DNA from: Agrobacterium tumefaciens
Lineage (GTDB): Bacteria > Pseudomonadota > Alphaproteobacteria > Rhizobiales > Rhizobiaceae
DNA: 64,000 nt
Reading direction: 5' to 3'
Assembly (NCBI RefSeq): GCF_013337285.1
Contig: NZ_SUPW01000003.1
Coordinates: 310,001 to 374,000, forward strand
Position numbers and translations under genes: made by a program. The notes beneath the pieces are model-generated. The model did no database searches. It saw only the letters and a list, made by a program, of their open reading frames with translations, and was not told where the DNA came from. This document shows, one piece after another, positions 18,971-31,950 of this stretch. Positions within the stretch are counted from its first letter, which is position 1. Each line of letters begins with the position of its first letter.

Positions 18971-19210
18971 GTTTAGCTCTTTGGGCTGTTGAACGGCACG
19001 TCGCGGTTTTGGCCGCAGCGCCCTTTAAAAGGGCATGACAGACATACCAATCCGGATAATAGGGAATTGTTCCGCTATTGCAATGACGGCAATGTAAAAA
19101 AGCCGCATCCGGCAGCAGTGAAAAATAACTGTCGACGATAAAATAGTCAGGTGAAGAACCGGGGTTAACCCAAAACTTCAAGTGCGATCCACGGCGACCG
19201 ATGGAGATTT
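18971..19210. other. Intergenic stretch between the CorC-type gene and the probable 6S RNA
   Basis: No convincing coding frame was found. The region is relatively AT-rich near 19120-19150 and holds a GGGTTAACCC palindrome near 19163. It probably carries the promoter of the CorC-type gene and the 3' flank of the 6S RNA; no clear terminator was seen. Confidence 0.4.
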
Positions 19211-19363
19211 ACGATCCTGGGTGCCTACAAATGTAGGTGGGCACCGTGTGTCCAGCCCCACGGGACTGGCCAGGGACAGCTCCCTTTGGATCGAGTATGG
19301 CCCCAGGGATTGTGGTTCCTGTCGGGAAGCGCAGAACGCATCCAAGATATAGGACGGATCGGA
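19211..19363 (-). ncRNA. ssrS: Probable 6S RNA (SsrS)
   Basis: A gene-free, highly structured 150-base segment lies between zapA and the CorC/5-formyl-THF cyclo-ligase genes, the classic 6S RNA position. On the minus strand the ends pair (CGATCC with GGATCG). The 5' half holds CCCTGGGGCCATA, resembling the conserved CCCUGAGCCGAUA of 6S RNAs. CCAGUCCC/GGGGCUGG can form a stem only with a G-U pair on this strand. A TTTTAT element sits just upstream as a possible -10. 6S RNA mimics an open promoter and sequesters housekeeping RNA polymerase. Ends are approximate and the strand is inferred. Confidence 0.6.
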
Positions 19364-29037: not shown

Positions 29038-30327
29038 ATGAGCAGAAATCTTCTACCCGTATTCGCTCTTTTATCCAGCACTCTGTTTCTTTTTCTCGGC
29101 AACGGCCTTCAGGGCCTCGTGCTGCCGGTTCGCGGTTCGGCCGAAGGTTACTCCAATGAAATCCTGGGCTTTCTCGGCACCTCCTGGGCCGCCGGCTTCG
29201 TCATCGGCTGCTTCGTGGCGCCCGCCATTGTTCGCCGGGCGGGGCATGTGCGGGCTTTTGGCTCCTTCGTCGCGCTGATCTGCCTGACGGTGCTGATGAC
29301 TGGACTCATTGTCGATGATGTCTGGTGGATTGCCCTGCGCGCACTTACCGGCTTCTGCACGGCCGGCACCTCGATGATCATTGAGAGCTGGCTGAACGAG
29401 CGCGCCACCAATGAGAGCCGTGGCATGATCTTTTCGCTCTATATCGCCATAACGCTGCTCGGCGTCGTGGCGGGGCAGATGATCGTGCCGATGGGCGACA
29501 TCAGCAATACCTCACTGTTCATGATCTGCGGCATCATCTATTGCATCGCCATTCTGCCGGCCACGCTTTCCAAGGCGGCAAGCCCGCAACCCTTGCAGAA
29601 GGTCAGTCTGGATTTACCGGCGCTCTACCGCAACTCACCGGTGTCCTTCATCGGTATTCTGATGATCGGCATCGCCAACGGCGCTTATGGTACGCTCGGA
29701 GCGGTTTTCGGCGCGCGGGCCGGTCTTGACCCGACCATGATCGCCATCATGGTATCCGTCACGATTTTCTTCGGCGCGCTGGCGCAATTTCCGGCAGGCC
29801 GTCTTTCAGACCGGATAGACCGCCGTTACGTGCTGGCCGGATTGGCCGGGCTTGGCGCCGTCGCAGGCCTTGCCGTTGCCGTGGTGCAGCCGCGTGATGT
29901 CTATGTGCTGATTTCCATGGTCGCCATTTACGGCGCCGCCGCCAACGCGCTTTATCCCATCGCCGTGGCGCATGCCAACGACTATGCCGCCGCGGAAGAT
30001 TTCGTCAAGGTCTCGGGTGGTCTGCTGCTGCTCTACGGCATCGGCACCATTATCGGCCCGACACTCGGCGGCGCGGTCATGACCTATTCCGGCCCTTATG
30101 CCCTGTTTTTTGTGACAGCCGTGGCCCACGTGCTGATCACCGCCTATGCCATCATCAGGAGCCGTCAGCGCGCCGCCCTTTCAACCGGCGAGAAGGACAA
30201 TTTCTCGACGATGATGCCAACCACACCTTCACCGCTCGTTACACCGGAAAGTATTGCGCTTGACCCGCGCGCGCCGCAATATTCCGAAGACGATGGCGAC
30301 TATGTGGAAAAAGGAGCAGGCATATGA
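29038..30327 (+). CDS. MFS transporter, YcaD-like
   Basis: A 429-residue major-facilitator protein with about 12 hydrophobic helices. Charged inter-helix loops include ESWLNERATNESRG after helix 4 and PAGRLSDRIDRRYVL before the second half, the family's duplicated loop motif. The N-terminal half resembles YcaD-type transporters. The substrate is unknown. The C-terminal tail of about 50 residues is acidic and cytoplasmic. The stop overlaps the next gene's start by four bases, coupling it to the DUF1192 gene. Confidence 0.88.
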   Translation: MSRNLLPVFALLSSTLFLFLGNGLQGLVLPVRGSAEGYSNEILGFLGTSWAAGFVIGCFVAPAIVRRAGHVRAFGSFVALICLTVLMTGLIVDDVWWIALRALTGFCTAGTSMIIESWLNERATNESRGMIFSLYIAITLLGVVAGQMIVPMGDISNTSLFMICGIIYCIAILPATLSKAASPQPLQKVSLDLPALYRNSPVSFIGILMIGIANGAYGTLGAVFGARAGLDPTMIAIMVSVTIFFGALAQFPAGRLSDRIDRRYVLAGLAGLGAVAGLAVAVVQPRDVYVLISMVAIYGAAANALYPIAVAHANDYAAAEDFVKVSGGLLLLYGIGTIIGPTLGGAVMTYSGPYALFFVTAVAHVLITAYAIIRSRQRAALSTGEKDNFSTMMPTTPSPLVTPESIALDPRAPQYSEDDGDYVEKGAGI

Positions 30328-30515
30328 GCCTCTTTGACGATGACCGCCCACAAAAACCCGTGGCGCACGAGATAGGCAGCGATCTCAGCCTTCTTTCAGT
30401 CGATGAGTTGAGCAGCCGTATCGACCTTCTGCAGGCCGAAATCACCCGGCTGGAGGAGGAGAGAACCCAAAAATCCGCCGGGCGCCTCGCGGCGGAGAAC
30501 CTCTTCCGATCCTGA
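30324..30515 (+). CDS. DUF1192 family protein
   Basis: A 63-residue protein starting MSLFDDDRPQKP. The family-typical helix LLSVDELSSRIDLLQAEITRLEEE predicts a short coiled coil. DUF1192 proteins are conserved in alphaproteobacteria and commonly found near rcdA, as here; no function is established. ATGA overlap with the MFS gene indicates translational coupling. The short acidic head and single helix suggest a protein-interaction adaptor, which is inference. Confidence 0.85.
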   Translation: MSLFDDDRPQKPVAHEIGSDLSLLSVDELSSRIDLLQAEITRLEEERTQKSAGRLAAENLFRS

Positions 30516-30616: not shown

Positions 30617-30631
30617 TTAACCAAAAATTAA
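30617..30631. promoter_or_regulatory. CtrA-type box 1
   Basis: TTAA, seven bases, TTAA: an exact match to the CtrA recognition pattern TTAA-N7-TTAA. It lies 24 bases before the start of the 17-codon frame at 30655, a position from which CtrA could activate the short transcript. Confidence 0.65.
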
Positions 30632-30654
30632 GCTTTCTGAGAGATTACTATACA

Positions 30655-30756
30655 TGTCCAGTTCTTCTGGACCTCAGGCATCTTCTCCATACGGCGAATT
30701 GGTCTGATTTTTCTCCCTGTTTTACCTTGAGAGCCGCTTTCGCGGCTCTTTTTTTA
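30655..30756 (+). ncRNA. Putative short transcript with a 17-codon reading frame and its own terminator
   Basis: Downstream of CtrA box 1, an ATG at 30655 opens MSSSSGPQASSPYGELV and stops at 30706-30708. A perfect terminator follows at 30730-30749 with a T-run. The unit of about 100 bases has promoter-like, coding-like and terminator parts, so it may be a small RNA, a small protein gene or an rcdA leader. No family was recognised and the 5' end is a guess. Confidence 0.4.
30729..30756 (+). terminator. Rho-independent terminator of the short transcript before rcdA
   Basis: AGAGCCGC-TTTC-GCGGCTCT is an 8-bp stem followed by seven Ts. It lies 163 bases before the rcdA ATG, with no upstream full-length gene closer than DUF1192. 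Confidence 0.92.
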
Positions 30757-30787
30757 CCGATCAACGGATTCGGTAAAACTGTGGGTA

Positions 30788-30802
30788 TTAACCCTTCTTT
30801 AA
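30788..30802. promoter_or_regulatory. CtrA-type box 2, upstream of rcdA
   Basis: A second exact TTAA-N7-TTAA lies 117 bases before the rcdA ATG and after the terminator, so it is well placed to control rcdA itself. CtrA activates rcdA in Caulobacter; use of this box is inferred. Confidence 0.6.
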
Positions 30803-30918
30803 TAATTGCCTTGCGCATTTCGGGTAAAGATACCATCCTGAAAACACTAAAAGACCGGAACAAAACATCCGAGTCTTCGTTGCCTGACAGTGTGGTGCGT
30901 GAGCAGGGATTTAAAGAA

Positions 30919-31434
30919 ATGTCGGAACAGGTTTTAAATACCATAAGCTTTGCGGGGCGCGCTGCTGCTTCCAACCAGTTCAAAACCCTCTATACTGAGG
31001 GCATGACTTTGGTTGAGGAAACGGCAAGCTATCTCGATGGCGCCGGCCGCGTAGCCTCGAAGGTTCTGCCGCGCATGGCCTCGGTCCTTTACGCAGCGGA
31101 ATCGATGCGCCTCACCACTCGCCTGATGCAGATGGCCTCCTGGCTGCTTCTGCAACGCGCCGTCAACAATGGCGAAATGACGCGGGATCAGGTTCTGAAC
31201 GAAAAGAGCAAGGTGCGTCTCGACAGTTTCAATGTCGACCGCAATGCGCCGGGCTGGAACGATCTGCCGGAATCTTTCCGTGACCTCATCGAACGGTCGC
31301 TGCGCCTCCAGAACCGCATCGCCCTTCTCGACCGCGAAATCTATCGTCCGTCCGAAGCCACCAAAGTGCCGGACAACGAAAATAGCGTGCAGGCGCAGCT
31401 TAATCTCCTGCGCACGGCCTTCTCCATCAACTGA
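30919..31434 (+). CDS. rcdA: RcdA-like (DUF1465) regulator of CtrA degradation
   Basis: A 171-residue DUF1465 protein. In Caulobacter the family member RcdA is an adaptor delivering CtrA to ClpXP together with CpdR and PopA. The helical core shows LYTEGMTLVEETASYLDGAGR, then RMASVLYAAESMRLTTRLMQMASWLLLQRAV, and a C-terminal helical region with EIYRP. ATG 30919 follows AGGGAT. Upstream in-frame ATGs (from 30727) run through the terminator and boxes, so they are not used. Two CtrA-type boxes upstream suggest feedback: CtrA drives the gene whose product removes CtrA. Confidence 0.9.
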   Translation: MSEQVLNTISFAGRAAASNQFKTLYTEGMTLVEETASYLDGAGRVASKVLPRMASVLYAAESMRLTTRLMQMASWLLLQRAVNNGEMTRDQVLNEKSKVRLDSFNVDRNAPGWNDLPESFRDLIERSLRLQNRIALLDREIYRPSEATKVPDNENSVQAQLNLLRTAFSIN

Positions 31435-31462
31435 AAAAAGACGACCTTATCCGGACAATTTG

Positions 31463-31492
31463 AAAAGCAGGCTCATCGGCCTGCTTTTTTGT
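31463..31492 (+). terminator. Rho-independent terminator after rcdA
   Basis: AAAAGCAGGC, six bases, GCCTGCTTTT, then Ts, 28 bases after the rcdA stop. Confidence 0.92.
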
Positions 31493-31635: not shown

Positions 31636-31806
31636 ATGCGGTTTTTAATGTATATTGCAGTGGCGTCTGGATGGGCATTACTCATCATTGCTTACATTTG
31701 TTTAAAGCCACTTCTGGACGCGAGCGACCGTATTGACCGCTGCTCTGATGACTCCTCTCCGGCGTATATCCACGATGACGCTGCAAGAGCCGCAGCCTGC
31801 GACTGA
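31636..31806 (+). CDS. Possible small membrane protein (56 aa)
   Basis: A 56-codon frame with one N-terminal hydrophobic segment (about residues 3-25), then an acidic Asp-rich tail with two cysteines. AAGAGTAG upstream could serve as a ribosome site. The surrounding 300 bases are more AT-rich than the neighbours. No family was recognised, so this may be a real strain-variable small protein or chance. A bidirectional terminator follows. Confidence 0.35.
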   Translation: MRFLMYIAVASGWALLIIAYICLKPLLDASDRIDRCSDDSSPAYIHDDAARAAACD

Positions 31807-31896: not shown

Positions 31897-31928
31897 AACA
31901 AAAAAGCCCGGCAAAACCGGGCTTTTTT
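31897..31928. terminator. Bidirectional terminator after rpmE
   Basis: AAAAAGCCCGG, five bases, CCGGGCTTTTTT. A- and T-runs on both sides allow use from either strand. On the minus strand it ends rpmE, 23 bases after its stop. Confidence 0.92.
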
Positions 31929-31950
31929 AAACAATCCGTCCGCAAGTGGA

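Follow-up and report, generated by a model that had tools for sequence, protein, structure and literature searches.

What is encoded in the short interval between two CtrA-type boxes in front of rcdA in this Agrobacterium tumefaciens DNA, and from which promoter is rcdA itself read? The interval encodes a genuine small RNA that belongs to a known family and whose regulatory position is both conserved and telling; it probably represents a CtrA-driven, trans-acting RNA placed beside the gene of CtrA's degradation adaptor, with rcdA being transcribed from its own promoter, P2.

The locus and the fold of its transcript

The sequence TTAA-N7-TTAA, which is the CtrA motif (PMC12403871), occurs exactly twice in the window, i.e., the whole 64-kb stretch of DNA analysed, with 0.18 occurrences expected and two or more found in 2 of 100 shuffles; both sites pointed out in the initial annotation are exact and they are the sole pair in the window. 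Box 1 (30617..30631, + strand, as are all the elements of the locus that follow; TTAACCAAAAATTAA), a putative CtrA-binding site, takes the place of the -35 in P1, the promoter of the RNA, and precedes a -10-like stretch (GATTACTATA, approximately 30643..30652) whose letters are conserved in a 55-locus consensus and which would act as the -10 of this promoter. Box 2 (30788..30802; TTAACCCTTCTTTAA) lies upstream of CTTGCG (30810..30815), conserved in a 67-locus consensus and presumed to be the -35 of P2.

The small RNA, of about 100 nt (~30655..30755, the predicted start being accurate to +/- 3 nt), consists of stem-loop 1 (30656..30672), stem-loop 2 (30674..30707), a single-stranded CUCCCUGUUUUACC (30713..30726), which is presumed to be a pairing region of the anti-Shine-Dalgarno type, and an intrinsic terminator (30729..30755) made of a perfect 9-bp stem (30729-30750) and a T run. 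The terminator and the 17-codon frame (MSSSSGPQASSPYGELV, 30654..30707), the latter judged here to be non-coding, had been reported between the boxes and are both present where they were placed. The next gene (30919..31434) is indeed rcdA (DUF1465; PF07323, E 3.5e-59), by family an adaptor in the proteolysis of CtrA, a process in which RcdA has a role (PMC4433202). The upstream gene (30324..30515), of DUF1192 type, was read from the sequence and owes its name only to synteny with S. meliloti CP090106.1. Between rcdA and rpmE there is a frame of 56 codons (31636-31806) whose N-terminal part includes a hydrophobic stretch, and further terminator-like hairpins are seen after rcdA (31462-31489, + strand) and after rpmE (31899-31929, - strand). 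A 6S RNA (RF00013, 78 bits; 19182-19340, - strand) offers a usable syntenic anchor to S. meliloti.

The predicted fold of the window RNA (-36.5 kcal/mol, z -5.03) was equalled by none of 200 shuffles and contains both the open core and the U-run of the terminator. In alignment A2, composed of 42 relatives of another sequence type, two-sided changes affect 10 of the 19 pairs, compared to 2.7 in shuffles, none of 500 of which scored as high; the terminator helix is 99.3% paired in the sequences of these relatives, in which compensatory changes occur in the helix of stem-loop 1 and the helix at the place of stem-loop 2 covaries. The pair count is taken from A2 and not from A3, because the latter includes seven matches below 20 bits and is a model-fitted alignment; furthermore, since the loci of A1 and A2 were selected by the letters TCCCTGT, the invariance seen in them is in part by construction. 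With 36 sequences of the window's own type RNAalifold recovered hairpin 2 and the terminator, but missed hairpin 1 and found zero two-sided changes, so that the covariation support derives from the relatives and from a stem change of hairpin 1 within the genus, GUCCAG/CUGGAC -> GUUCAG/CUGAAC, that preserves the pairing while altering the residues of the 17-codon frame. The compensatory stem changes that had been proposed as a check for an RNA are seen among the relatives and within the genus. As to the core, CUCCCUGU is found in 29 of 30 loci selected by rcdA, in 29 of 30 selected by RF02356 and in 11 of 12 loci of the wider class, none of them chosen for the motif.

Family, identity and spread of the RNA

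A default Rfam scan gave no match at the RNA locus, whereas a permissive one yielded a full-length match to RF02356 (BjrC1505) with 36.5 bits (E 1.7e-5); since the gathering cut-off of the family is 50 bits, the window RNA is to be regarded as a divergent homologue and not as a filed member. Its homology to the wider RF02356 members, in both sequence and structure, is borne out by model R1, built from the 42 relatives with the window's sequence type left out, which produced a single match in the 64-kb window (57.2 bits, E 1.6e-11, the E-values being rough). Like the window RNA, BjrC1505 displays box, hairpin 1, hairpin 2, CUCCCUGU and GC-rich terminator in this order, and its members in other families also sit upstream of rcdA; what differs is hairpin 2 and the bases flanking the core, UUUCUCCCUGUUUUACC in the window and GACGCCUCCCUGUUAAC-like in BjrC1505. 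The RF02356 model apparently starts at a CtrA-type box and so probably includes promoter DNA, its positions 1 to ~30 apparently lying upstream of the transcript start. The rcdA-adjacent placement emerges from the present analysis and is not part of the Rfam definition of the family.

Two other RNAs, mmgR/suhB (RF00519) and SorY (RF02651), share with the window RNA the succession of CUCCCU, ACUU-like bases and a GC-rich terminator, but their matches (21.9 and 15.9 bits, E 0.022 and 0.7, respectively) span only its 3' part and fall far under the cut-offs; with a gathering threshold of 41 bits, the window RNA does not belong to RF00519.

SmelC671 of S. meliloti was described in 2011 as having a long single-stranded stretch with a conserved CUCCCUGU between variable hairpins and a 3' terminator, as well as a broad spread in the Rhizobiales with extensive microsynteny (PMC3927594), and the fold and sequence of the window RNA carry the same hallmark. 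SmelC671, alias Sm84, which is ReC71 in R. etli, was found by RNA-seq, with a Northern reference listed, as a 100-nt plus-strand RNA located ~14.2 kb from the 6S RNA in strain 1021 (PMC2873474). The homologue in S. meliloti Ak57 has 100 nt by its predicted ends, is on the same strand and lies 12.8 kb from 6S, the corresponding distance in 4H41 being 12.4 kb; length and strand (the latter two in Ak57) thus agree, whereas the spacing from 6S differs by 1.3-1.7 kb between strains. In a comparison of described motif, length, strand and position, the window RNA is almost certainly the same RNA as SmelC671/Sm84.

It follows that the separately terminated unit, which the initial annotation held to be undescribed, yields a transcript of a known family (RF02356 BjrC1505, SmelC671/Sm84; PMC3927594). 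The families that the text of this paper names as experimentally verified for A. tumefaciens are five, SmelC671 not being among them, and its main text makes no mention of CtrA, rcdA, rpmE or DUF1465; as this negative covers the main text, the rcdA neighbourhood may be listed in its Table S1. SmelC671 is listed without a promoter motif in the table of PMC7143759, the terms atu374, rcdA and ctrA do not occur in the Agrobacterium small-RNA papers PMC3738593 and PMC4201532, and no description of a CtrA box of a SmelC671-type RNA was found in an open-access library or in the papers cited here. Thus, the transcript family and its CUCCCUGU motif are already published, and the conserved boxes suggest that the CtrA-type switch is a new and testable link to the cell cycle.

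The linkage of the RNA with rcdA was followed in 150 genomes drawn evenly across the order. An RF02356 match with E<=0.001 was obtained in 126 of them, 107 being over the cut-off, in a scan whose stricter filters lost some weak matches, and DUF1465 was present in 136. Both were detected in 121 genomes, in 118 of which the RNA directly precedes rcdA on the same strand, at a distance of 153-1224 nt (median 220) from the DUF1465 match, while in the other three the two are on different contigs of assemblies of 160-500 contigs. The RNA alone was detected in five genomes, one of which has two copies of it, rcdA without detected RNA in 15 and neither in nine; three genomes show a second match, weak in one of them, on a contig other than that of rcdA.

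Across the class, an RF02356 match was found in 20 of 190 genomes (nine over the cut-off), and RcdA was detected downstream by tblastn in six of 12 class loci, one of the six belonging to the same order and one of the 12 loci ending too soon after the RNA to be judged. The core UUUGACGCCUCCCUGUU, or a near variant of it, also occurs together with a terminator in alphaproteobacteria outside the order, in several loci after a TTAAC-type half box.

At the opposite end of the scale, the DNA of the locus is present in every one of 37 genomes from the genus, the own one among them, and S. meliloti Ak57 shares this gene order and has both boxes exact. In this strain a DUF1153 gene, ctrA, rcdA and cpdR1 all lie within ~143 kb (CP090106.1, 3015835-3158411), on a sequence that is titled pSymB yet carries genes expected on the chromosome.

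Promoters, targets and competing explanations

The conservation of the boxes was followed over 89 loci of rcdA from the GTDB family, 30 taken as the best-scoring and 59 chosen to span genera; only three, window included, represent the window's genus. RNA core and perfect-stem terminator are present in 76 of them, with an exact box 1 in 54, an exact box 2 in 65 and both in 50, so that paired boxes, separately terminated short transcript and adjoining rcdA are all kept beyond the strain in which they were first noticed. As to the 13 loci lacking the unit, the model recovered it in four, gave only 19 bits in one and nothing in eight, six of these eight being genomes of 1.2-2.0 Mb. Among the 30 best RF02356 loci from other families, box 1 is exact in 15 and exact or one letter off in 28, at a nearly constant 83-91 nt before the core, whereas no exact second box was seen in any of the 30 within 400 nt downstream of the core. 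By comparison, the flanking DNA, a partly redundant total of 257,724 nt inclusive of same-genus loci, contains zero exact boxes and seven of a looser kind (0.0014 of the latter per 50 nt), so that chance does not account for the boxes of the locus.

A conserved TTAA-N7-TTAA box in the promoter, one mark of a member of the CtrA regulon, is present, and the CtrA link proposed at the outset finds support at the level of sequence. Since box 2 was not seen in the 30 other-family loci, it is apparently the RNA rather than rcdA whose control by CtrA is widely conserved; RNA and box 1 would represent the widely conserved part of the locus, box 2 having presumably been either gained in Rhizobiaceae or lost elsewhere.

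In S. meliloti, CtrA was found by ChIP-seq to bind at the promoter of rcdA, an essential gene whose mRNA is unchanged upon CtrA depletion (PMC4433202); the words sRNA, small RNA and SmelC do not occur in the text of this study. With respect to the proposed delayed feedback, these findings point in both directions. In all three agrobacterial lineages, multiple mapped starts and possible or predicted CtrA sites occur upstream of rcdA (atu3742), the mentions of small RNAs in the portion of that report consulted concerning earlier work only (PMC10469942).

Occupying the -35 of P1, box 1 most likely makes CtrA a direct activator of the RNA gene. The opposite sign deserves consideration: CtrA can also act as a repressor, and a box whose centre is ~31 nt before the presumed RNA start could cover the -35, so that the RNA would be made when CtrA is absent. 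Such repression is, however, unlikely, as the P1 consensus has no other obvious -35 besides box 1, which is therefore probably needed for activation.

With CtrA as the likely activator of P1, the second question concerns the partners of the RNA, whose core CUCCCUGU is complementary to Shine-Dalgarno sequences. For the start regions of ctrA and gcrA the predicted pairing was no better than with shuffles, and both genes were rejected as targets: with one type-B core used for all genomes, none of 30 start regions of either gene reached p<=0.05 across families, and with the window core none of 12 ctrA and 12 gcrA loci did so at 0.05, the lowest values being 0.06 and 0.34, respectively.

For rcdA the data are mixed. 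The idea that the main role of the RNA in Rhizobiaceae is to silence rcdA by base pairing at the ribosome-binding site of this gene, thereby delaying the degradation of CtrA, can draw on the window, where the pairing has a p of 0.033 (0.055 with another stretch) and the rcdA duplex (-17.3 kcal/mol) is the strongest of 59 predicted gene starts, albeit nearly tied with the next two (-17.2 and -17.1), and on CAGGGA, a sequence that 18 of the 27 type-A leaders of rcdA carry. Yet this sequence is found in two of 49 type-B leaders, the pairing attains p<=0.05 in only eight of the 27 type-A and five of the 49 type-B loci, and in S. meliloti rcdA ranks 14th of 46 predicted starts. It is hence distinctly improbable that silencing of rcdA is the main function of the RNA; with that rank in S. 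meliloti and no general match in type-B relatives, rcdA was rejected as a general target and may be retained as a weak, lineage-limited candidate.

The own genome contains four copies of the complement of the core, AAACAGGGAGA. One belongs to the RNA itself, another comes before a 76-codon frame, and the remaining two lack any frame of more than 40 codons starting within 40 nt. As a separate lead to a target, the start region of S. meliloti gap (L192 20938) contains GACAGGGAGAGA and gives -19.2 kcal/mol with the core, the second of 46.

A third reading would make of the unit a leader of rcdA, P1 producing a long leader transcript in which the terminator sets how much transcription reaches the gene. 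The position of the RNA in 118 of the 121 genomes having both elements would fit an attenuator of this kind, and because no exact second box was seen in the 30 other-family loci, read-through could matter there. In Rhizobiaceae, however, the terminator is followed by a separate conserved promoter, formed by box 2 and CTTGCG in the 67-locus consensus, and the genomes with the RNA but no detected rcdA (five) or with an extra copy on another contig (three) also speak against attenuation, which we consider very unlikely.

Finally, a reading in which CtrA controls a peptide translated from the 17-codon frame, perhaps without a leader, is scarcely credible: the frame begins approximately at the predicted 5' end of the RNA, and of the 31 loci from the genus (the own one among them, 14 sequences being distinct) 29 keep it open with its ATG, but the ATG is absent in the other two, the residues are altered by compensatory stem changes, the distinct changes after the start codon (13 nonsynonymous, 4 synonymous) are close in ratio to the sites (35:13) and thus reveal no synonymous bias, and outside the genus an ATG is near the RNA 5' end in 23 of 75 loci, heading frames of 1 to at least 40 codons with no evident common peptide. 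Neither a conserved start codon nor synonymous-biased substitutions, the signs of a small protein, distinguish this frame, and the micropeptide was rejected. Of the two products originally envisaged between the boxes, the short RNA is borne out by its compensatory changes and the peptide, for which the proposed check of substitutions offered no support, is not.

The proposed mechanism and its place among cell-cycle RNAs

The trans-acting RNA favored above would work as follows. CtrA, most likely as a direct activator, would drive from P1 the synthesis of a ~100-nt RNA in which two hairpins and the terminator leave CUCCCUGU single-stranded; the RNA would most likely act in trans, aided by Hfq, by pairing with the Shine-Dalgarno regions of its target mRNAs. 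The terminator would end this transcription, rcdA being read from P2, which in Rhizobiaceae has the second CtrA box. Activation by CtrA would thereby bring together, in one part of the cell cycle, an RNA acting as a repressor and the adaptor responsible for the later removal of CtrA itself. The binding of CtrA and its sign, the contribution of Hfq and the pairing in trans are deductions in this scheme, and the delayed negative feedback through CtrA's own degradation adaptor that had been proposed is plausible.

More tentatively, and with somewhat less than an even chance of being right, the RNA could represent an ancestral post-transcriptional arm of the CtrA regulon, activated by CtrA and maintained next to rcdA throughout the Hyphomicrobiales, with representatives in parts of the class beyond, which silences a set of mRNAs by laying the near-invariant CUCCCUGU over their ribosome-binding sites.

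Other small RNAs have been connected to the cell cycle. EcpR1 (SmelC291) is likewise an order-wide rhizobial RNA beside a cell-cycle gene (divK-pleD) and acts on cell-cycle mRNAs (PMC4414408), but it belongs to another locus, is induced by ppGpp and acts on dnaA and gcrA via a GC-rich loop (PMC7143759). GspR (SmelC775) is a small RNA of the CtrA network which is restricted to Sinorhizobium, is encoded between SMc03844 and SMc03845 and represses ctrA (PMC5928217); unlike GspR, the window RNA does not have ctrA among its predicted targets. CcnA of Caulobacter, a non-coding RNA that is presumably CtrA-activated and has a C-rich pairing stretch, differs in being encoded at the replication origin and in acting on ctrA and gcrA through a CCCC loop; a homologue of CcnA in S. 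meliloti was not clearly detected by its authors, according to the part of their report consulted here (PMC8959179).

Whereas EcpR1 and GspR, the described rhizobial cell-cycle RNAs, act on regulators, the window RNA would be an output of CtrA itself. For the SmelC671 and RF02356 family, to which no function has been assigned, this offers a concrete hypothesis, namely that CtrA controls the RNA and times it to the cell cycle. The presence of CtrA at the S. meliloti rcdA promoter without a change of rcdA mRNA may possibly be accounted for in the same way, part of the signal coming from the RNA promoter located ~170 nt upstream. If the ancestral arm is real, CtrA would repress genes that it does not bind, in step with the making of its own degradation adaptor.
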